Source of the DNA: a virus
DNA length: 64,000 bases
Direction: 5' to 3' (one strand)
Virus record (IMG/VR): IMGVR_UViG_3300044730_001993
Coordinates: 1 to 64,000 of that record
The first letter of the stretch is position 1; every line of letters starts with the position of its first letter. Below the pieces are notes generated by a model. It did not search any database. It was not told where the DNA came from and saw nothing but the letters and a program-made list of their open reading frames with translations. Of the stretch, positions 16,897-48,704 are shown piece after piece. The translations under genes were made by a program, and so were the position numbers.

Positions 16897-17247
16897 TCAG
16901 CGGCTCCTCGGGAGCACAACCGGCATCTTCCGCTCGGCGACCTTCACCATCGACGCGGGCACGAGCATCGTTCGGAACACGCGCTTCGCGTTGTCGAGCG
17001 CCTCACCCTCCGCGCGCGAGAGCACCGTGCTGTTCCTCTCGTGCCTACGCTGGAACTCGTCGATCGCCTTCGCGAGCATCACCGCCTCGTCGCGAACGTT
17101 CTCGTAATGGTTGTAGTCTTCGGGCGAGAGACGGAACTCGCGCGCTTCGAGCCAGCGGTAGAACGTTCGCGGCGCGATGAACTCGCCGGGTGCGGGTTCG
17201 ATCGAGTTGCGGACGGAGCGGCGGACGGTACGCTTCTTGGATTGCAT
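16897..17247 (-). CDS. Tagged helical protein, unknown
   Basis: 116 aa. N-terminus VRRSVRNSIEP is a variant of the basic Asn tag. The rest is helical and charged (FYRWLEAREFRLSPEDYNHY, RDEAVMLAKAIDEFQRRHE). Unlike its neighbours it is driven by a sigma70-like promoter. Not recognised. Confidence 0.65.
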   Translation of the reverse strand: MQSKKRTVRRSVRNSIEPAPGEFIAPRTFYRWLEAREFRLSPEDYNHYENVRDEAVMLAKAIDEFQRRHERNSTVLSRAEGEALDNAKRVFRTMLVPASMVKVAERKMPVVLPRSR

Positions 17248-31258: not shown

Positions 31259-31294
31259 CGCGGCGGAGCGTCGGACTCCGCCGCGTTTCCGTTT
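31259..31294. terminator. Bidirectional terminator
   Basis: 10-bp stem CGCGGCGGAG/CTCCGCCGCG with a 7-base loop, then TTTCCGTTT, between convergent genes ending at 31232 and 31294. Confidence 0.65.
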
Positions 31295-32127
31295 CACACC
31301 TCCGCAGGCGGCGTCGTATCGGGCGCAGGAATCGTCACTTCGACGACTTCGCCGACGCGCGGGAACGTGAGCACCAGTTCGCCGCTCTCCTCGTCCCACG
31401 ACACGATCGCCTCGCGACCCATCGACGCCATAACCGACGGGATGGCTCCGCGGAACGTGACGCCCGCGTTCGTCTTCGCTTCGATGAAGTAGCACCCCGA
31501 CGACTTCGTGAGTCGCACGCTCTCACGCGAGCACCCGGCGACCATCACGCGCTCCTCGGTGCGGTCGGCGTACTCATGCACCCTCACCACGGGTCGGAGC
31601 ACCACCTCCGCGGGCGCTGCGGAGCCGCCAGCGGGCGCCTCGCACCGCCCACCGGGGCACGGGCCTCCGGGGCACTTGCTCGCGCCGCACGGGGCCTTCT
31701 TGCCCGTTCGCTTGAACGCATCACGGAACCCCGCGAGCACCATCGGGTCGACACCGAGCGACTCGACGAGGTCGAGCAGTTTCGTCGGGTCGACGTCTGC
31801 GGTCGCGTCGGCGAACGTCTGCACGGTCTTGCGGAGGCTCTTCGCGATCGACTTCGCCCCCGCTTCGGCGACGAGCAGCGCGCACGCCTGCGAGCAGGCG
31901 AGCACGAACTCACGCGGCGTCGAAGCGGCGAGCGCCGCCATCAGGCCGTTCTTCGCCGCGCGGAGCGACTCCTCGGTGCGCAGGCGCTTGCGCTCGTCAC
32001 GTTCGAGGTCGGCGATGCGGTCGGTGAGTTCGTCGAGGTCCGCGAGAACGTCGCCGTAGTCGGTGCCCTCGGCATCGTCGGCGGTCGTATCGTCGGGCGT
32101 GGTTTCGGGGGCGGTGTCGGTGGGCAT
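31294..32127 (-). CDS. Unknown 277-aa protein with acidic N-terminus and Cys-rich linker
   Basis: ATG at 32127 with GGAGGAACC upstream. Acidic start (ETTPDDTTADDAEGTDYGDV), a coiled coil (LADLDELTDRIADLERDERK), a helical domain (to about 150), the linker CGASKCPGGPCPGGRCEAP, and a beta C-terminal domain (VRVHEYADRTEERVMVAG, ELVLTFPRVGEVVEVTI). Downstream of the sigma-ParB gene and separated by a hairpin. Function unknown. Confidence 0.65.
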   Translation of the reverse strand: MPTDTAPETTPDDTTADDAEGTDYGDVLADLDELTDRIADLERDERKRLRTEESLRAAKNGLMAALAASTPREFVLACSQACALLVAEAGAKSIAKSLRKTVQTFADATADVDPTKLLDLVESLGVDPMVLAGFRDAFKRTGKKAPCGASKCPGGPCPGGRCEAPAGGSAAPAEVVLRPVVRVHEYADRTEERVMVAGCSRESVRLTKSSGCYFIEAKTNAGVTFRGAIPSVMASMGREAIVSWDEESGELVLTFPRVGEVVEVTIPAPDTTPPAEV

Positions 32128-32243: not shown

Positions 32244-33572
32244 TCACTTCGGGTCGGTCACGAGCGATGCGGCGTTCGGGTCGGTGTTCGGGTCGCCCTT
32301 CGCGCGAGCAATGGCCTCGGCGACCTTCTTCGCCTTCTCCGCGGCCTTCTTGCGGGCATCCTCGACGGCCCCGTAGAGCGAGGCGACGCCCTTGATGGCG
32401 TCCTTCTCGCGCTTGTTCAGCGACGCCCACCCGATGCTCGCGAGCTTCATGCACGCGAGGGCCAACGTCTCGTGCTGGTTCCCCTTGTTGTTGAGACCCT
32501 CACCGTACGCGGTGGCGAACCGTGCGCCGAGGGGCTTCTCGGCGAACTGCACGGGGACGCGGGGCGTGCCGCTGCCGGTCACCGCGTCGGGCGACTCGCG
32601 CTCGGTGCGCTCGCCGTTGCCGCCGCCCGAACGTTCGCCGCCGCCCTCGTCGTCGCGATCGTCGACCGTCGAGTTCGACACGTACTCCGCGGAGGCGCGG
32701 CGGGTCGCGATCGCGTCGCGAACGCTCGTGGCGCCCGCGGCGATCATCTCGGCGACGATGCGGCTCACCTCGTCGGGCGAGGCGCCGTTGCGGCACACTT
32801 GCAGGACGGCGTTGATCGAAATCGCGTCGCTGAACACCGCGTCGATCACGTCGGCGTTCTGCATCGAGAGGCGTTGCCACGAGCGCACCACGTTCTCGGT
32901 CCGGTTGACGTGGCGAGCGATCTCGCCGTACGGAGGCGCGGGCGCCTTCGCGTCGTTGCGGTGGGCCTTCGCCCACTCGCCGATGCGGTGCATCGCCATC
33001 GTGTAGAGCCCGCGCTCGCCGATCACCTTGCGCCCGGTGTTTTCGAGCATCACCTCGGCGGTGTACTCGTCGGCGTTCGCGGTGCCACGCCCGCCGCTCA
33101 TCACCCTGAAGTCGGGGCGCCAGTTGGCGCCGAGCGTCTCACGGCGCTCCGCGACCACCGCGCGGAGGGCCTTCACATCGCGGGTGCCCGCGAGGCACTC
33201 CCACACGATCGCCCACCACACGAGGCGCGAGCGCCCGACCTTCGTGTAGACGTTCGTGTCGCCCTTGATCTGAACCACCTTGGGCTCGGTCTGCTGCCCG
33301 TCGATGAGCACCGAGAGCAGCATGTTCAGGTGATGCGCGGCGCGGTAGTGACCGCTCGCGATGAAACCGTCGGTGTCGGCGTAGAGCGCACGGAGCTCCG
33401 AGGCGTCGGACGCGTCGGGGTCGACGAGTCCGCGGGTCGCGTCCGTCGGGGCGACGAACAGCCCGCCCTCGACGCCTTCCGCGACGATCTTGATGTCCTT
33501 CGTAGGGTCCGCGAGGGCCGGAACGCCCTTCGCCACGTTGCCGATGTTGCATGCCTGCTTCGTGATATCCAT
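32244..33572 (-). CDS. ParB-like protein from internal start
   Basis: 442 aa from ATG 33572, which has its own GGAGAAG site and an element-type promoter inside the sigma-factor frame. The N-terminal part (about 95-130 of this product: VVQIKGDTNVYTKVGRSRLV) resembles the ParB/Spo0J domain. It is followed by an HTH (about 214-245: PYGEIARHVNRTENVVRSWQ) and a helical stretch (AISINAVLQVCRNGASPDEV) as in ParB/KorB. The C-terminus is charged and Lys/Ala-rich. It could partition the element's DNA or act as a regulator. No ParA is in the window. Confidence 0.65.
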   Translation of the reverse strand: MDITKQACNIGNVAKGVPALADPTKDIKIVAEGVEGGLFVAPTDATRGLVDPDASDASELRALYADTDGFIASGHYRAAHHLNMLLSVLIDGQQTEPKVVQIKGDTNVYTKVGRSRLVWWAIVWECLAGTRDVKALRAVVAERRETLGANWRPDFRVMSGGRGTANADEYTAEVMLENTGRKVIGERGLYTMAMHRIGEWAKAHRNDAKAPAPPYGEIARHVNRTENVVRSWQRLSMQNADVIDAVFSDAISINAVLQVCRNGASPDEVSRIVAEMIAAGATSVRDAIATRRASAEYVSNSTVDDRDDEGGGERSGGGNGERTERESPDAVTGSGTPRVPVQFAEKPLGARFATAYGEGLNNKGNQHETLALACMKLASIGWASLNKREKDAIKGVASLYGAVEDARKKAAEKAKKVAEAIARAKGDPNTDPNAASLVTDPK

Positions 33573-34214
33573 GTCGTCTTCTCCTGCCCCTTCATACGCT
33601 CCCGCCGTCGGGATTCTTTCATCGACGTGACCGTTTTCTTCTCCGCGCATCACTTCGGCGTACGCGCGCCTCGCGTGAAACAGTCGCGACATCACCGTGC
33701 CCTTCGGGATGCCTTGCTCCGCAGCGATCGCGGTGTACGCCTTGCCGTTCGCCCGCGCGATCAGCACGTCACGGTGGGCGGGCGAGAGCGTGTGGATCGC
33801 CTCGACGACGCGGGCCTCGTGCTCGCGATCCTGCGCGACGGCGCACGGGTCCGTTTCGTCCGCGGTCGTGGGCAACTGCGAGTCGTCGCAGTCGTCGATA
33901 GAAACCGCGAGAGACGCTTTACGATTGCGGCGGTGGTGGTCGATCGCGAGGTTCGCGACGATGCGATAGAGCCACGTCGCGAACGATGCACGACCGTCGA
34001 ACTCGTCGAGGTGACGCCACACGCGGAGAAACGATTCCTGCACGATATCGTGCGTCGCTTCGGCGTCGCGGCACGCCCCGAACGCCATCGCGCGGGCGCG
34101 CGGCGTATGCCTCCTCACCAGTTCCGTGAACGCGGCGCGGTCGCCCGAACGGGCGCGATCCACGAGTTCACGGTCGTACAACGCCCCCTGCGCAGACTCG
34201 GAAACAGCACCCAT
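32244..34214 (-). CDS. ECF sigma factor fused in frame to a ParB-like protein
   Basis: 656 aa if read through. Residues 1-214 are an ECF sigma factor: region 2 at about 26-95 (AAFTELVRRHTPRARAMAFG, DIVQESFLRVWRHLDEF, ASFATWLYRIVANLAID) and region 4 at about 136-190 (LSPAHRDVLIARANGKAYTA, GIPKGTVMSRLFHARRAY). Residues 215-656 are a ParB-like protein (see the internal start). No stop codon separates them. ECF factors direct RNA polymerase to special promoters, and the conserved boxes found across the window are the likely targets. It starts at ATG 34214 and is divergent from a ribbon-helix-helix gene. No anti-sigma factor is seen beside it. Confidence 0.8.
   Translation of the reverse strand: MGAVSESAQGALYDRELVDRARSGDRAAFTELVRRHTPRARAMAFGACRDAEATHDIVQESFLRVWRHLDEFDGRASFATWLYRIVANLAIDHHRRNRKASLAVSIDDCDDSQLPTTADETDPCAVAQDREHEARVVEAIHTLSPAHRDVLIARANGKAYTAIAAEQGIPKGTVMSRLFHARRAYAEVMRGEENGHVDERIPTAGAYEGAGEDDMDITKQACNIGNVAKGVPALADPTKDIKIVAEGVEGGLFVAPTDATRGLVDPDASDASELRALYADTDGFIASGHYRAAHHLNMLLSVLIDGQQTEPKVVQIKGDTNVYTKVGRSRLVWWAIVWECLAGTRDVKALRAVVAERRETLGANWRPDFRVMSGGRGTANADEYTAEVMLENTGRKVIGERGLYTMAMHRIGEWAKAHRNDAKAPAPPYGEIARHVNRTENVVRSWQRLSMQNADVIDAVFSDAISINAVLQVCRNGASPDEVSRIVAEMIAAGATSVRDAIATRRASAEYVSNSTVDDRDDEGGGERSGGGNGERTERESPDAVTGSGTPRVPVQFAEKPLGARFATAYGEGLNNKGNQHETLALACMKLASIGWASLNKREKDAIKGVASLYGAVEDARKKAAEKAKKVAEAIARAKGDPNTDPNAASLVTDPK
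33592..33621 (-). promoter_or_regulatory. Element-type promoter inside the sigma frame
   Basis: TGAAAG, 18 bases, GTATGA, then a 19-base leader with GGAGAAG to ATG 33572. If the sigma factor reads this class, it would drive its own ParB half. Confidence 0.55.
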
Positions 34215-34263
34215 GCGCCGCTTGTCGCACGCATCGTAATACAACGCAACAAAAAGCGTGACG

Positions 34264-34292
34264 TTGACGCGAGCGCCAAACGTAGGCACAAT
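34264..34292 (+). promoter_or_regulatory. Sigma70-like promoter, near-leaderless
   Basis: TTGACG, 17 bases, CACAAT, then 7 bases to ATG at 34300. The divergent sigma gene starts at 34214, so the two share an 85-base control region. Confidence 0.6.
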
Positions 34293-34299
34293 CGCCCGT

Positions 34300-34506
34300 A
34301 TGTCGAAGAAGGTGAAGAAGCCCGCGGTGGCGGTGGTCGAGAGCGAGCGGCCGACGGTGGCGTTGAACCTGCGGATCACGCCGTCGCTCTCGCGTCGCCT
34401 CGACTGCGAGGTGAAGCGTGTGCTAGCGGAGCGTCCGGGTGCGGTGATTTCGAGGTCGGATGCGGTGCGGGAGGCGCTCGCGCGGGTATTGCCCGCGGAG
34501 GCGTAG
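34300..34506 (+). CDS. Ribbon-helix-helix (CopG/Arc-like) regulator
   Basis: 68 aa. A basic N-terminus, the ribbon VALNLRITPSLSRRLDCEVK and helices ending in SRSDAVREALARVL. This is the size and pattern of CopG/MetJ-fold repressors, which bind DNA as dimers. Divergent from the sigma-ParB gene, so it is the obvious candidate to repress it. Start ATG 34300. Confidence 0.75.
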   Translation: MSKKVKKPAVAVVESERPTVALNLRITPSLSRRLDCEVKRVLAERPGAVISRSDAVREALARVLPAEA

Positions 34507-34511
34507 GCGGA

Positions 34512-34787
34512 CTACTGCGCGGCGGCGGGCTGCACGGGCGCGGGCACGGCGTTGCGCGTGATCTTGCCCGTCGCGAGGTCGAGGCGGTCGGCTTCGGTGA
34601 GGGCGTACTTGTGCCCGAGCATCGCGTTGATGCTCTGCTGGTGCTGCGACGCGGCGTCGGCCTCGACCTTCGCTGCGGCAAGCGCGTGCGATGCGGCGAG
34701 GGCGCGGTAGTGCGCCTCGCCGAACAGCGCACGGTCGTTCGGCGAGAGGGTGTCGGGGGGAGTGGGAACGTTCGGTTGATCGGACAT
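34512..34787 (-). CDS. Small Ala-rich helical protein
   Basis: 91 aa, ATG at 34787 with GGAGGT upstream. DRALFGEAHYRALAASHALA and KYALTEADRLDLATGKITRN. Lies downstream of the fibre-like gene; may be a small virion or chaperone protein. Not recognised. Confidence 0.6.
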   Translation of the reverse strand: MSDQPNVPTPPDTLSPNDRALFGEAHYRALAASHALAAAKVEADAASQHQQSINAMLGHKYALTEADRLDLATGKITRNAVPAPVQPAAAQ

Positions 34788-34791
34788 GAAT

Positions 34792-34825
34792 ACCTCCGCG
34801 CCGTTGTACGCCGCGGCGCGGAGGT
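34792..34825. other. 12-bp perfect inverted repeat around a promoter -10 box
   Basis: ACCTCCGCGCCG, 10 bases, CGGCGCGGAGGT. On the minus strand it spans the -10 box of the 34787 gene and forms a stem that would hide its GGAGGT ribosome site. A possible translational or transcriptional switch. Confidence 0.5.
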
Positions 34826-40532: not shown

Positions 40533-42488
40533 TTACACCGGCCGGAGCGATGCCCCGCCCTTGAGAAGCCACGTTACACCAACCTGCGCCTTCACGCGAA
40601 TACCGCCGCAGAAATCCGACGGCAAGAAATCGGTGCTCACCGTACCGCTCGCCACGGACGGAATCGTGCCCGTGGTGCGGCCCGCGCACGCGGCCACGAG
40701 GTCGGCGTCAGAGAGTTCGGTGGAGTACGTTCGTACTTCGCCGATGAGCGCCGACACGAGCGGGTAGAACGTGGGCGAGTACGCGCGCGTCGAACCGATG
40801 TCGTACGTGTCCGCGCTTGTGGGCGCGGTGTACGTTCCAGCGAGAGCAGCGATCGTCTGCACCGCGCCGCCGCTGACGGAGTAGCGGACCGACTTGTCGG
40901 CCTTGACAACGATCGCGATCACGTAGGCCGATGACACGGTGAAATCGCTGCCAGTGAGCGCGACCTCCGCGGATGCGTTCAGACCCGCGAGATAGAGGCG
41001 CACTTGCCTGCGAGCGCCAGCGTTGTTGCCGACCGCGATATACCACCCTCTTACGCCCGCCGTCGCATTGTGGGCAGCGATGATTTCTTGCCCGGTCGGC
41101 GTGGCGTTAGGATAGATGCACACGACGATCGACTGCCCCGGCCCGAACGCGGGCACCACCGCGGCGGCGCTCGCGGTGGCGTAGTCAGCCGCCGCCCAGC
41201 CCGTCGCCGACTCGCCGCCCATGTAGAACGCCGTTGCGTTGTAGAGATTGAGCCACCCCGCGACGCCGCCAGACGGTGCCACCCATGCGGGGATGCCACC
41301 GCTCACGGTCAACACTTGCCCCGCGGTGCCCACTCCGAGACGCAGCGGCGTACCGCCAGCGTTCGCGTAGAGCATATCGCCCGCGGTTGTCATCGGGTTC
41401 GTGAGCGCGGTCGACGTTTGCCACGTCGCCGTACCACCCGACACGGTGAGAACTTGCCCGACGGTGCCGATGCCGAGCCTACCAGCGGCACCGGATACGC
41501 CGCCGACGATCAGATCGCCGACCGTTGTCATCGGGCTCACGAACGCAGGCGCCGCCCACGAGGGCGCCCCACCGGACACGGTGAGCACTTGCCCCGCAGA
41601 ACCGATCCCGAGCCGTTGCTGCGCGCCGCTCACGCCGCCCGTGATGACGTCGCCGAGCGTAGTCATCGGGTTCGCTTGAATCGTGACGGTTTGCCACGAC
41701 GGGGCGCCCGAAATGTACTTGAGAAACTGCCCCTCGGAGCCGCCCGCGAGTCGCGTCGGCACCCCGAGAGTGCCGCCGTAGATCGTGTCGCCAGCGGTGG
41801 TCATCGGGTTGACGAGTGCCACGAACGTTGCCCACGCAGCGGTGCCACCGGCCACGGTGAGAACTTGCCCGTTCACGCCGATTGCGAGTCGCCCCGCCGC
41901 TCCGCTCACGCCGCCGAGAACGAGGTCGCCCGCGGCGTTCATCGGGTTCGCGAACCCGACTGCCGCAGCCCACGCGGGAGCGACACCAGCGCCGCCCGCG
42001 GTGAGAACGTAGCCCGCGGTGCCCGCGGCGAGGCGCGTCGCTACGCCACTCGCACCGCCGTAGATCGTGTCGCCGACGCTGTTCATCGGGTTGGTGAGCG
42101 CGGTCGTCCATGCGAGCGCGCCGCCCGTGACGCCGAGCACTTGACCGTTCGTGCCGATTGCGAAACGTGTCGGCGTGCCCAATGCTCCGCCCGCGAGAAG
42201 GTCGCCAGCCGTGGTCATGGGGTTCGCGAAGCCCACCGCCGCAGACCACGCAGGCACGCCCGACTTGACGGTCAACACGTAGTCGCTCGCGCCGATGGCA
42301 AGGCGCTGCCACGCGGATGCGCCGCGCGCGAGAAGGTCGCCCGTCGCTTGCGATGCAATCGTAAGGTTGCTGGTCTGCGTGGCGATCGTGCCCGTACCCG
42401 AGCCCGTCGTGTCGCCCGTGAGCGTGACGGTGCTGCCAACGCCGCCGTTGTACGACCCCTCGATGATTTGCGTGCCGCAGGTAATCAT
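40533..42488 (-). CDS. Repeat-built tail fibre with LamG-like head
   Basis: 651 aa. N-terminus MITCGTQIIEGSYNGG is shared with the 1064-aa fibre. I count seven copies of a unit of about 41 residues with NPM-x-x-x-GD-x-x-x-GG, RLAIG and GQVLTV-x-GG-x-P-AW. The C-terminal 240 residues look like a LamG/concanavalin-like domain (RGWYIAVGNNAGARRQVRLY, then IGEVRTYSTELSDADLVAAC), a common receptor-binding head. Virion tip or fibre, probably trimeric. Confidence 0.75.
   Translation of the reverse strand: MITCGTQIIEGSYNGGVGSTVTLTGDTTGSGTGTIATQTSNLTIASQATGDLLARGASAWQRLAIGASDYVLTVKSGVPAWSAAVGFANPMTTAGDLLAGGALGTPTRFAIGTNGQVLGVTGGALAWTTALTNPMNSVGDTIYGGASGVATRLAAGTAGYVLTAGGAGVAPAWAAAVGFANPMNAAGDLVLGGVSGAAGRLAIGVNGQVLTVAGGTAAWATFVALVNPMTTAGDTIYGGTLGVPTRLAGGSEGQFLKYISGAPSWQTVTIQANPMTTLGDVITGGVSGAQQRLGIGSAGQVLTVSGGAPSWAAPAFVSPMTTVGDLIVGGVSGAAGRLGIGTVGQVLTVSGGTATWQTSTALTNPMTTAGDMLYANAGGTPLRLGVGTAGQVLTVSGGIPAWVAPSGGVAGWLNLYNATAFYMGGESATGWAAADYATASAAAVVPAFGPGQSIVVCIYPNATPTGQEIIAAHNATAGVRGWYIAVGNNAGARRQVRLYLAGLNASAEVALTGSDFTVSSAYVIAIVVKADKSVRYSVSGGAVQTIAALAGTYTAPTSADTYDIGSTRAYSPTFYPLVSALIGEVRTYSTELSDADLVAACAGRTTGTIPSVASGTVSTDFLPSDFCGGIRVKAQVGVTWLLKGGASLRPV
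41277..42270. repeat. Coding repeats in the 651-aa fibre
   Basis: About seven tandem units of roughly 123 bases. They encode the GD-GG-RLAIG-GQVLTV repeat. Confidence 0.65.
42340..42488. repeat. Shared 5' end of fibre genes, copy A
   Basis: Nearly identical to 45740-45897 apart from a few changes; covers the first ~50 codons. Could be a recombination point between the two fibre genes. Confidence 0.65.
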
Positions 42489-42703
42489 ACGCCGCCAGCC
42501 TCGGTCGACCAGCAGCCCGCGACGGGAGCGTCGTTGTCGCAGCGTGTCACCGCCACGAATCGCTCGACGAGCACGCCGGGGCGCATCACGTCGATCGTCA
42601 AGGTGTCGGCGTCAATCACTTCGACAACGTGCGCCGTGCACCGCTCAAGATCCGACGAGAGCGGCCTCGCGAGGTAGAAGAGAACGTGGTCCGTCGTACG
42701 CAT
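42485..42703 (-). CDS. Small beta-rich protein between fibre genes
   Basis: 72 aa; ATG 42703 overlaps the fibre stop (TGATG). TTDHVLFYLARPLSSDLERC then AHVVEVIDADTLTIDVMRPG. Overlaps the next fibre start by 4 bases. Possibly a fibre attachment or assembly protein. Confidence 0.6.
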   Translation of the reverse strand: MRTTDHVLFYLARPLSSDLERCTAHVVEVIDADTLTIDVMRPGVLVERFVAVTRCDNDAPVAGCWSTEAGGV

Positions 42704-45700
42704 CAGAGCGCCTCCACGGTGCAGTTGTCGAACGTCATCGTGACGGTGCCGCCCGCGGACGGATTCTGAGCCATCAGCACCACAAGGTCCCATCCCTTCG
42801 TATCGAACGGAGAGTACGCGAAGACGGCGCCGCAGGATCGAAAATCGCTATCCGACGGCCTCGCTCCACCAGTCCCTCGCGCAAACGCGAACACCAGCGT
42901 GCCTCCGTCCGCAGTAAGTTGGGTCCAGTCGTTTCCGTCGTAGAGCGGCGGCGACGCGGGCGTGCCGCTCGTGATCGCGGCGGCGGTCACAAAATTCTGC
43001 GAACCGATCGTGGTCCCCGCGTAGTACATCCCGTACTTCGACGCAGCCGACCCCGTATTCTCTAACGTAACGCACGGCGTCGTTCCGCCAGTTTTGCCGC
43101 TGAACGAGGCGAGCCGGAGCGTGACTCTGAATCGTGAGGCGACAACGCCGGTCGGCATCGGCACGCGCACGCGCGGAGCGGTGTACGTCCCGCTTGCGTA
43201 GCCTGCGGTGACGCCCGCCCCGATCGACAGCGTGACGACGCTGGCCGACGTGATGGTCGCGGTGCCGTTGCCGTTCGTCGCGGCGCCAGTCGTCCAGTTG
43301 ATCGTATACGTTGTCGTGCCAGTGGCCGACCACGACGGAGCAACGCCAGCGCCACCAGACGTAAGCACGTATCCCGCGGTGCCCGCCGCGAGCCGCGTGG
43401 GCGCCCCCGAGGCGCCGCCGACGATCAGATCACCGACGGTCGTCATGGGGTTCGTGAGCGCGGAGAACGTGGCCCACGCGGGCACGCTGCTCACGATCTG
43501 GAGTACCTGCCCTTCGGTGCCCACGGCGAGTCGAGCGGGCACGCCCGACGCGCCACCTTGAATAAGGTCACCGACGGTGGTCATCGGGTTCGTGAGCCCC
43601 GCAGCCCACGTCACCGTCGTGCCGTTCGATGCGAGGAACGTTCCGTTCGCTCCGATGCCGAGTCGCGCCGGAGCGCCGGAAACACCGCCGACGATCACGT
43701 CGCCGTCGGTCGTCATGGGGTTCGCGAAGCCCACGGGTGCCGCCCACGACGGTACGCCAGCGGCGAGCGTGAGCACGTTTCCGTTCGAGCCAGCCGCGAG
43801 ACGCGTGGGCACGCCGCTCACGCCGCCGTACAGCGTGTCCCCCGTCGTGGTCATGGGGTTCGAGAGACCCGCCGCCCACGACACGGCGGACCCGTTCGAC
43901 GCGAGGAACGTCCCGTTCGCTCCGATCGCGAGGCGCGTTGCGGCGCCGGAGACGCCGCCGACGATCACGTCGCCTGCCGTGGTCATCGGGTTAGCGAAGC
44001 CCACTGGCGCAGCCCACGCGGGCGCCCCACCGGACACGGTGAGAACCTGCCCCGACGTGCCGATACCGAGGCGTTGCTGCGCGCCGCTCACGCCGCCCGT
44101 GATAACGTCGCCGAGCGTTGTCATCGGGTTCGCTTGAATCGTGACAGTCTGCCACGATGGCGTGCCCGAAACGTACTTGAGAAACTGCCCCTCGGAGCCG
44201 CCCGCGAGCCGCGCCGGAGCACCACTCACGCCGCCAGCGATCATATCGCCCGCGGTTGTCATGGGGTTGACGAGCGCCGTGAACGTTGCCCACGCAGCGG
44301 TGCCACCGCTCACGGTCAACACTTGCCCTGCGGTGCCGATCCCGAGCCGCCCCGCTGCGCCCGAGACGCCGCCGAGCACGAGGTCGCCCGCGGTGGTCAT
44401 CGGGTTCGTGTACGGCGTCGCCCACGACGGCACGCCGCCAGCGATCGTGAGCACTTGCCCGGTGCTCCCGACGGCGAGGCGCGTCGGAGCGCCAGCGGTG
44501 CCGCCGTAGATCGTGTCACCTTCGGCGTTCATCGGGTTCGAGAGCACGGTCGTCCATGCGAGCGCGCCGCCCGTGACCCCGAGTACCTCGCCGTTCGAGC
44601 CGATGCCGAGTCGAGTGGGAGTGCCCGATGAACCGCCCGCGATCAAGTCGCCCGCGGTGGTCATCGGGTTCGCGAACCCGACCGCCGACGCCCACGCCGC
44701 GGTGCCGCCAGCGACGGTGAGAACCTGCCCCGCAGAACCGATCGCGAGTCGGCCCGCGGCGCCGGAAACGCCGCCGAGCACGAGGTCGCCCGCGGTGGTC
44801 ATCGGGTTCGTGTACGGCGTCGCCCACGAAGGCACGCCTGCCGCGAGCGTGAGAACTTGACCGTTCGTGCCCACGGCGAGTCGCGTCGGGGCGCCCGCGG
44901 TGCCCCCGTAGATTGTATCCCCGACGGAGTTCATCGGGTTCGTGAGCGCGGAGAACGTCGCCCACGCGGCGGTGCCGCCGCTCACGGTGAGCACTTGCCC
45001 CGCCGTGCCGATGCCGAGTCGCCCCGCCGCTCCGCTCACGCCGCCGAGCACGAGGTCGCCCGCGGTGGTCATCGGGTTCGTGTACGGCGTCGCCCACGAC
45101 GGAACACCCGCGGCGATCGTGAGCACTTGCCCGGTGCTCCCGACGGCAAGGCGTGTCGGCGCACCCGCGGTGCCGCCGTAGATCGTGTCACCCACGGCGT
45201 TCATCGGGTTCGTGAGTGCGCTGAACGTCACCCACGCGGGGGCACCCGCGTTGACCGTCAACACTTGCCCCGCGGTGCCGATCGCGAGTCGCGTCGCTGC
45301 GCCCGACGAACCGCCTGCGATCAGGTCGCCCGCCGTGGTCATCGGGTTCGCGAAGCCAACCGCTGCGGCCCACGCCGGGGCAACGCCCGCGCCACCCGCG
45401 GTGAGAACGTACCCCGCGGTGCCCGCGGCAAGCCGCGTCGCTACGCCGCTCGCACCGCCGTAGATCGTGTCGCCGACGCTGTTCATCGGGTTGGCGAAGC
45501 CGACCGCGGACGCCCACGCAGGCACGCCCGACTTGACCGTGAGCACGTAGTTCTCGGTGCCCACCGCGAGGCGCGTGGCCGTGCCGCTCACGCCACCCGC
45601 GATCAAGTCGCCGGGGTCCGTCATCGGGTTCGTGAAACCCGCCGCAGCGGCCCACGCTGGCACGCCCGCGGTGACGGTGAGAACCTGCCCGTTCACGCCG

Positions 45701-45897
45701 ATTGCGAGGCGTTGCCACGCCGACGCTCCGCGTGCGAGGATGTCACCCGTCGCCTGCGATGCAATCGTGAGGTTGCTGGTCTGCGTGGCGATCGTGCCCG
45801 TACCCGAGCCCGTCGTGTCGCCCGTGAGCGTGACGGTGCTACCGCCGCCACCGCCGTTGTACGACCCCTCGATGATTTGCGTGCCGCAGGTAATCAC
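42703..45897 (-). CDS. Giant repeat-built tail fibre
   Basis: 1064 aa from GTG 45897. The N-terminus is the same as the 651-aa fibre. I count seventeen copies of the ~41-residue unit, one after another over residues ~60-850. The C-terminal 210 residues (TTYTINWTTGAATNGNGTAT, RVPMPTGVVASRFRVTLRLA, GGTVTMTFDNCTVEAL) are a different, beta-rich tip from that of the 651-aa fibre. Likely a host-recognition fibre. Codes downstream of the PAS/receiver genes. Confidence 0.75.
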   Translation of the reverse strand: MITCGTQIIEGSYNGGGGGSTVTLTGDTTGSGTGTIATQTSNLTIASQATGDILARGASAWQRLAIGVNGQVLTVTAGVPAWAAAAGFTNPMTDPGDLIAGGVSGTATRLAVGTENYVLTVKSGVPAWASAVGFANPMNSVGDTIYGGASGVATRLAAGTAGYVLTAGGAGVAPAWAAAVGFANPMTTAGDLIAGGSSGAATRLAIGTAGQVLTVNAGAPAWVTFSALTNPMNAVGDTIYGGTAGAPTRLAVGSTGQVLTIAAGVPSWATPYTNPMTTAGDLVLGGVSGAAGRLGIGTAGQVLTVSGGTAAWATFSALTNPMNSVGDTIYGGTAGAPTRLAVGTNGQVLTLAAGVPSWATPYTNPMTTAGDLVLGGVSGAAGRLAIGSAGQVLTVAGGTAAWASAVGFANPMTTAGDLIAGGSSGTPTRLGIGSNGEVLGVTGGALAWTTVLSNPMNAEGDTIYGGTAGAPTRLAVGSTGQVLTIAGGVPSWATPYTNPMTTAGDLVLGGVSGAAGRLGIGTAGQVLTVSGGTAAWATFTALVNPMTTAGDMIAGGVSGAPARLAGGSEGQFLKYVSGTPSWQTVTIQANPMTTLGDVITGGVSGAQQRLGIGTSGQVLTVSGGAPAWAAPVGFANPMTTAGDVIVGGVSGAATRLAIGANGTFLASNGSAVSWAAGLSNPMTTTGDTLYGGVSGVPTRLAAGSNGNVLTLAAGVPSWAAPVGFANPMTTDGDVIVGGVSGAPARLGIGANGTFLASNGTTVTWAAGLTNPMTTVGDLIQGGASGVPARLAVGTEGQVLQIVSSVPAWATFSALTNPMTTVGDLIVGGASGAPTRLAAGTAGYVLTSGGAGVAPSWSATGTTTYTINWTTGAATNGNGTATITSASVVTLSIGAGVTAGYASGTYTAPRVRVPMPTGVVASRFRVTLRLASFSGKTGGTTPCVTLENTGSAASKYGMYYAGTTIGSQNFVTAAAITSGTPASPPLYDGNDWTQLTADGGTLVFAFARGTGGARPSDSDFRSCGAVFAYSPFDTKGWDLVVLMAQNPSAGGTVTMTFDNCTVEAL
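43310..45720. repeat. Coding repeats in the 1064-aa fibre
   Basis: About seventeen tandem units of ~123 bases, several nearly identical to each other and to those in the neighbouring fibre gene. Confidence 0.65.
45740..45897. repeat. Shared 5' end of fibre genes, copy B
   Basis: Matches 42340-42488. Confidence 0.65.
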
Positions 45898-47588: not shown

Positions 47589-48704
47589 TCACTCCCTCGT
47601 CTTGGCGTTCGCGAACATCGTCCGCGCGGCGAGCGCGAGGAGTTCTTCGTTGACGTGGTTCGCAGGGTTGAACGTGCCCATCGGCACGCGGTATTTCTTG
47701 AAGAGTCGCGTCACGAGGCGCCGCTGACGGTCCGGCGACAACGCGAAGAACTGACTCGTCGCCACCATGCCAGCGCGCTTGAGAAACGACCCCTCGTCGG
47801 CCCACTGGCGCGGGATTTGGCGCTTACGCTGCGACCTCGTGAGCGGGAGTCCAGACCTCGCCATGTCCTTGCGCGAGTCGCGAATGCGTTTCTGGAAACC
47901 GCGCTTCGAGTAGCGGTCGGGGTGAAACGACGCCTCTCGCTCGATCCAGACGCTCCAGCAGTGGTTGCGCACGGCGCGGATCGCCTGCTCGACCTGATAG
48001 CGCGACTCCAGTTCGGTGATCGCGCGGAGGTGCTTCGGGAGCGCGCGACGCACCGCATCAGTGAGCGCGTAGAAATCGCCATCCTCGCCCGAGTCGGTCC
48101 ACGCGGCGACGAGTTTCTCCAGTCGCTTCGGCGCGATCTTCGAGTTGACGCAGCACGGCGACGATCCCTCACGGTGAGGGAAGGGCATATCGTCGGCGAG
48201 GTCCATCGGGTGCACGCCCATGCGCTTCGCGTCGGCCTCGATCATGCTCGTGTACCCGCGCATCTCCGCCGTGAACGACGGCGTGTCGGGGCAGAGTTTG
48301 TCCTTCGCGTGGCGCATCCTCGCGCGAACGACCGAGCGCGGCACGGGCGTTTCGATCCCGCCCTTTCCCATGTGGGTGCGCACGATGAACGACGATTGGC
48401 ACCTGTACGCCTTGCCGCGTCGCCCGTGCTGGAAGATCGTTTCGCCGAGCGGCGTCGCGCAGCCGATGACCATCGACGGCGAGGGGTCACCGCGCAGCGT
48501 CACCTCGCGACCGATCAGCTTCGACTTGCACCTGTACGGCGTGCCCGCCGACTGCGTGAGCCACGGCTTCGGCACGCGACCGGGCTTCCAACCGCAGGCT
48601 TTACACAGCCCCGTCTCGCACTCGCGGTGTTCGTGCTTGGCGGCGCGCTTCGCTGCGCGGGCATCGTTTCGGAGAGCGCGGCGGGCGCGACGTTTGGCGG
48701 GCAT
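47589..48704 (-). CDS. Large basic Cys-rich tagged protein, unknown
   Basis: 371 aa. N-terminal KRRARRALRND (Asn at 13) resembles the tag. Cys groups (CETGLCKACGWK, PYRCKSKLIG, AYRCQSSFI, SPCCVNSKI) suggest zinc binding. The C-terminal part is helical and basic (FQKRIRDSRKDMARSGLPLT, RRLVTRLFKKYRVPMGTFN). Head of the tail-end gene run; has both an element-type and a weak sigma70-like box upstream. Function unknown. Confidence 0.6.
   Translation of the reverse strand: MPAKRRARRALRNDARAAKRAAKHEHRECETGLCKACGWKPGRVPKPWLTQSAGTPYRCKSKLIGREVTLRGDPSPSMVIGCATPLGETIFQHGRRGKAYRCQSSFIVRTHMGKGGIETPVPRSVVRARMRHAKDKLCPDTPSFTAEMRGYTSMIEADAKRMGVHPMDLADDMPFPHREGSSPCCVNSKIAPKRLEKLVAAWTDSGEDGDFYALTDAVRRALPKHLRAITELESRYQVEQAIRAVRNHCWSVWIEREASFHPDRYSKRGFQKRIRDSRKDMARSGLPLTRSQRKRQIPRQWADEGSFLKRAGMVATSQFFALSPDRQRRLVTRLFKKYRVPMGTFNPANHVNEELLALAARTMFANAKTRE

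Follow-up and report, generated by a model that had tools for sequence, protein, structure and literature searches.

In a virus whose sequence comes only from environmental DNA, the open reading frame of an ECF sigma factor continues without a stop codon into that of a ParB-like protein, which raises the question of whether this locus makes a sigma-ParB fusion, a separate ParB-like protein, or both. The window analyzed here comprises 64,000 bases and corresponds to bases 1-64000 of an IMG/VR virus record, G000, with a length of 87,860 bases; positions are counted from its first base.

The open frame and its place in the assemblies

The initial annotation described the sigma frame as open through the ParB-like protein, and the translation bears this out. 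The frame lies on the minus strand (32244..34214) and runs from an ATG at 34214 to a stop codon ending at 32244, giving an uninterrupted translation of 656 aa. A codon-usage score is positive along the 656-codon frame with a dip at the linker between the two halves, while the other two frames are mostly negative. This linker of 24 codons (33573..33644, minus strand), which contains a promoter and a ribosome site, does not have the codon bias of its two flanks, with a GC3 of 0.46 versus 0.84 in the sigma half and 0.93 in the ParB-like half. When the end of the sigma factor is read two bases shifted, a TGA appears after 12 codons, so a single base missing from the assembly would create the fusion.

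The same virus is found on two further IMG/VR contigs, G001 (46.6 kb) and G002 (87.6 kb). G000 and G002 were assembled separately and agree with zero mismatches and zero gaps across 53,066 bases. An assembly or sequencing error at the joint is unlikely given this perfect agreement over 53 kb, with the joint itself lying outside G002. G002 ends at window position 34795, short of the sigma start by 581 bases on its upstream side, and extends G000 at the opposite end by about 34.5 kb, bringing the known virus sequence to about 122 kb (G000 plus G002). The region from 32244 to 34794, which holds the joint, is covered by a single assembly, and an indel-tolerant search with the junction did not find a second record of it. 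Searches for further relatives of the virus by its helicase, a GP88-like protein, a second sigma factor, and the promoter patterns returned none beyond contigs of the same virus. Genes for an integrase and a UvrD-like helicase are present, together with those for virion-protein-like repeat proteins and for one protein that has both tape-measure and endolysin matches, and the virus is possibly incomplete. Two closely related IscB genes are present (L002:9704-11086 and L003:10261-11628, both on the minus strand), as is a match to the HEARO (omega) RNA at L007:16465-16714; this IscB/HEARO repeat probably accounts for the assembly breaks at 87860.

The N-terminal half is an ECF sigma factor

By its domain content, the N-terminal half is a complete ECF sigma factor. 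The sigma domains span residues 12-190 (33645..34181, minus strand), with region 2 and region 4 both over the Pfam cut-offs (Sigma70_r2 at residues 32-99, E 1.3e-18; Sigma70_r4_2 at residues 135-183, E 5.6e-9), region 3 absent, and a length of about 200 aa, as in ECF sigma factors. This half also matches PHROG 1740 (E 1.2e-27) and the NCBIfam sigma70-ECF family TIGR02937 (E 1.3e-24, over its cut-off). Its relatives are distant ECF sigma factors only, with identities of at most about 35% among the phage-record matches listed, and in the relatives checked the downstream genes are anti-sigma-like or unrelated, not ParB.

An adjacent gene for a cognate anti-sigma factor is usual for an ECF sigma factor, if not universal. 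No anti-sigma family matched the downstream 277-aa protein or the ParB-like part, a search that a divergent anti-sigma factor could escape. The gene that follows the ParB-like protein (31294-32127, minus strand) has a C-terminal stretch that by eye resembles alpha-crystallin (small heat-shock) proteins, a likeness without database support. On the other side of the sigma gene, a divergent small gene (34300..34506, plus strand) encodes a ribbon-helix-helix (RHH)-like, putatively DNA-binding protein, a family read by eye and with a weak PHROG match (E 0.017). It is preceded by a sigma-70-like promoter, TTGACG-N17-CACAAT, at 34264-34292, and its product may control the 85-bp upstream region common to both divergent genes.

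The C-terminal half is probably a very divergent ParB

Counted from an ATG at 33572, the ParB-like part is 442 aa long (32244..33572, minus strand), whether made as a separate product or as the C-terminal part of the fusion. On the basis of profile comparisons, it carries a ParB-type HTH and is probably a very divergent ParB. Residues 217-296 (32685..32924, minus strand) score 10.2 bits against a profile built from 50 ParB sequences, versus a maximum of 6.0 bits in 1000 shuffles. The best match among 38,880 PHROG families is PHROG 1033, a ParB-like partition protein, whose E value is 0.022 when the whole part is compared and 0.0012 when the comparison is limited to the HTH. This match to a ParB HTH of the KorB/Spo0J type is weak but specific, and it extends beyond the HTH to the second part of ParB's DNA-binding domain. 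An hhalign comparison to ParB is collinear over residues 9-294 (E 0.023) and aligns ENTGR (residues 177-181) on the ENLQR box of ParB, while the counterpart of the GERR box is ambiguous.

A ParB nucleotide-binding domain in the 442-aa part is only suggested: PF02195 had no match at E<=10, and a Pfam search of this half returned nothing. The "ParB-like" label of the initial annotation is upheld statistically for the HTH only. ParA (PF13614) had no match in G000 or G002, which are from an incomplete element, whereas all 14 of the 14 control genomes were positive. Relatives of the ParB-like part were sought in viral contigs, genome contigs, phage records, plasmids, and 195 genomes of the phylum of a Myxococcales genome, and none was found. 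A lone match with E=7e-4 (L097) fell in a GC-rich stretch with no recognizable ParB-like frame and was dropped. The result for the HTH came from the more diverse 50-sequence profile, a 30-sequence ParB profile alone being not significant. AlphaFold models made without relatives had a pLDDT of 39 for the whole ParB-like part and 67 for the HTH, so that no structural claim is based on them, and fold searches with the predicted HTH model returned nothing meaningful.

A promoter class with a member inside the junction

The pattern AGAA-N15-CGTA occurs at 20 sites in the window, compared with 0.62 expected from shuffles, and other spacings of the same elements occur 0-4 times. An iterated matrix expands this class to about 53 sites in the 122 kb, with the consensus GTAAG(A/G)(A/T)(C/T)...C...CGTA.AAGGGGCA. 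Class sites are dense in regions of small genes and nearly absent from 41-61 kb. In about 40 of the roughly 53, an ATG stands 8-9 or 11-12 nt downstream of the -10 CGTA, which suggests that their mRNAs would lack a leader or carry one of about 3 nt, if transcription starts 6-7 nt after the -10 as is typical of ECF promoters.

One member of this class lies within the linker, as had been proposed for positions 33592-33621. It occupies 33595..33617 on the minus strand, with a -10-like CGTATGA at 33598-33592, and reaches 18.4 bits when it is left out of the training of the matrix, a score for which chance predicts 0.05 sites per 122 kb. The site is correctly oriented and is followed by GGGGCA as in the rest of the class; the class-conserved GGCA points to a transcript start at A 33585, and the transcript would begin AGGAGAAGACGACATG. 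The proposed ribosome site and separate start are likewise present in the form of a Shine-Dalgarno sequence, AGGAG (33581..33585, minus strand), 8 nt before the ATG at 33572 that opens the 442-aa frame. The distance from CGTA to ATG is 22 nt at the junction versus 8-12 nt in about 40 of the 53 class members, and this longer spacing leaves room for the Shine-Dalgarno sequence. With promoter, Shine-Dalgarno sequence, and ATG all in place, a separate 442-aa ParB-like product from the internal promoter is well supported at the sequence level. A terminator-like hairpin on the plus strand at 33600-33613 was within chance expectation and was not used.

The sigma factor that would read this class is suggested by published ECF sites. 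SigW recognizes TGAAAC N16-17 CGTA and BldN recognizes CGTAAC N16 CGTTGA (PMC2375139), and the layout of the virus class, GTAAG, N17, CGTA, is close to both. Because this layout fits ECF promoters, autogenous control is plausible, with the ECF sigma factor reading the class and hence controlling its own partner, as first proposed. The virus also encodes a second, RpoH-like sigma factor with regions 2 and 4 (L007:1227-1964, minus strand), and this protein is the leading alternative candidate for reading the class.

A proposed mechanism and its alternatives

The reading that we favor, tentatively and at a little below even confidence, is a virus ECF sigma factor with a ParB-like DNA-binding C-terminal extension and a second transcription unit nested within the locus. 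Both the fused and the separate product are probably made. Early in infection, transcription of the sigma gene would start in its own upstream region, which the divergent RHH-like protein may control, and translation would continue past the joint to give the 656-aa fusion, as the missing stop suggests. The fusion would bind host RNA polymerase and, judging from the promoter layout, activate the virus promoter class. Once active, the sigma factor would use the class site in the linker to produce a short-leader mRNA, from which the free 442-aa ParB-like protein would be expressed. The ParB-like part is expected to bind virus DNA through its HTH; within the fusion it would hold the sigma factor on virus DNA, and the free protein would pair or compete with the fusion, setting the output. 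Such a locus could act as an autogenous switch, in which the balance between fused and free product would shift in a feed-forward manner once the sigma factor becomes active.

This model is supported by the open frame, the sigma domains, the junction promoter with its Shine-Dalgarno sequence and ATG, the ParB HTH, the ECF-like layout of the class, the identity of G000 and G002 over 53,066 bases, and the precedents of ECF sigma factors controlled by C-terminal extensions and of ParB-fold/Sigma70 fusions. Counting against it are the lack of relatives that would show the missing stop to be conserved, the single assembly, a linker without codon bias, the second sigma factor, the absence of PF02195 and ParA matches, and the atypical distance of 22 nt from the -10 to the ATG.

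The joining of the two genes could instead be incidental, the sigma stop having been lost by drift and the frames agreeing by chance, so that the free ParB-like protein is the working product and the fused form is tolerated. A strong class promoter and a ribosome site do serve the ParB-like gene separately, about 50 other class sites act as independent starts, the linker is without codon bias, and a random stretch of 24 codons would be open with a probability of about 0.58 at the local GC. Such an event nevertheless needs a one-in-three phase in addition to a stop loss, with both the ECF sigma factor and the downstream gene left intact, and among the roughly 53 class promoters the junction site is the only one seen with a coding half of the same frame on either side; we consider an incidental fusion rather unlikely. 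The missing stop could also be an assembly or sequencing error between two ordinary adjacent genes, which we regard as improbable. If one more base stood before 33620, the sigma frame would close at a TGA inside the promoter (C-terminus ...RRRKRSRR-stop), a shift by two bases leads to the TGA after 12 codons, an AAAA run lies just upstream, and the joint is in one assembly only, since G002 ends before reaching it. Against an error stand the 53,066 bases identical to a separately assembled contig and the intact state of long genes, including those for the helicase, integrase, IscB, and cysteine desulfurase.

The nature of the C-terminal half and the reader of the promoter class allow other interpretations as well. 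This half might be a generic HTH extension that restrains the sigma factor or senses for it, like the extensions of ECF41 and ECF42, and not a functional relative of ParB. Regulatory C-terminal extensions are common in ECF groups according to a review (PMC8999054), and here the HTH alone is significant while PF02195 matches nothing. Yet the similarity does not end at the HTH but reaches the second part of ParB's DNA-binding domain, the profile alignment is collinear over the ParB N domain with ENTGR opposite ENLQR, and an internal promoter and start are fitting for a protein with a role of its own as well, all of which leave us with little expectation that the generic interpretation is correct. 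Compatible with any of these interpretations, the class might be read by the second virus sigma factor or by a host sigma factor and not by the ECF sigma factor. The virus does encode that second protein with regions 2 and 4, and the link between the ECF sigma factor and the class is a predicted one, but a -10 of CGTA whose -35 has an AA core about 20 bp farther upstream resembles ECF promoters and differs from a -10 of the TATAAT type; we see reading by another sigma factor as a serious possibility, if on the unlikely side.

Comparison with known systems

That no sigma-ParB fusion had been described, as the initial annotation stated, is out of date. A 2025 survey (Kaljevic et al., PMC12704722) reports fusions of the ParB-CTPase fold to Sigma70 domains in bacteria, with ATP binding by a tested bacterial protein, and treats ParB-like proteins as a general NTP-binding module, recently recognized, that is fused to many partners. 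The virus protein resembles these fusions in that a ParB-like protein and a sigma-70 domain are joined in one polypeptide. The survey was built on the ParB fold (PF02195), whereas the virus protein has the sigma part and no PF02195 match in its ParB-like part. It differs further from the bacterial fusions, whose domain order and sigma regions are not stated in the survey text, in its virus carrier, the complete ECF sigma factor ahead of the ParB-like part, the internal promoter, and a regulon that is visible in the sequence. A sigma-ParB fusion as such is not a new idea. In the same text the role of the Sigma70 fusions was not worked out, and the virus locus makes the function of such a fusion testable, with about 50 candidate target promoters already visible.

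C-terminal extensions that control an ECF sigma factor are a known design (PMC8999054, PMC3426412). The virus locus shares with them an extra domain joined in frame without a stop, here in a single assembly, and no recognized anti-sigma gene alongside. The extensions described there are SnoaL, TPR, cysteine-rich, or anti-sigma-like domains, whereas that of the virus is ParB-like. The accessible part of the review of ECF extensions (PMC8999054) mentions neither ParB nor phages and describes no internal promoter for an extension alone.

ParB-like DNA-binding proteins that act on transcription and not on partition, as proposed here, include KorB (PMC11790492) and VirB (PMC10770331). Both are separate proteins and neither is joined to a sigma factor, in contrast to the virus ParB-like part, and the likeness concerns the way of working only. 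In T4 late transcription, the gp55 sigma factor works with the gp45 sliding clamp (PMC7892883, PMC2988020), a parallel in working only, in that the virus sigma factor would also be coupled to a protein held on DNA. T4 gp45 is a separate replication clamp and is not ParB-like, and clamping by the virus fusion is conjecture. A more specific model, which we hold to be very doubtful, makes the fusion a factor for promoter selection carried by a DNA-sliding clamp of the ParB type. Loaded on virus DNA, the ParB-like part would bring the sigma factor, together with the RNA polymerase of the host, to about 50 promoters of the virus, and sigma-free subunits from the nested promoter would tune the number of active clamps. 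If true, it would be a one-polypeptide counterpart of the gp55-gp45 arrangement.

Other features of the virus

The virus carries a tmRNA (L006:9451-9823, minus strand; Rfam RF00023, 114 bits) with the tag ANDNFVPAFAAAA, and a match to the CyVA-1 RNA over the gathering score is found at L006:15501-15578 (minus strand). Other genes encode a DndA/SspA-like cysteine desulfurase (L003:5841-7103, minus strand; E 5e-87) and a PtuA-like ATPase (L002:1231-2388, minus strand; E 2e-24).

A basic motif like KRxxRRSxRN(P/S) is found within the first 45 residues of 13 of the 211 predicted proteins, compared with 10 of 504 internal windows, and is possibly a sorting or processing signal; its carriers include the products of 16897-17247, 47589-48704, 72535-73155, and L006:2219-2938. 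Two large proteins encoded at 40533-45897 (minus strand) begin with the same N-terminal sequence (MITCGTQIIEGSYNGG...) and contain internal repeats that resemble a virion structural family of PHROG, and this repeat region was assembled differently in G001.
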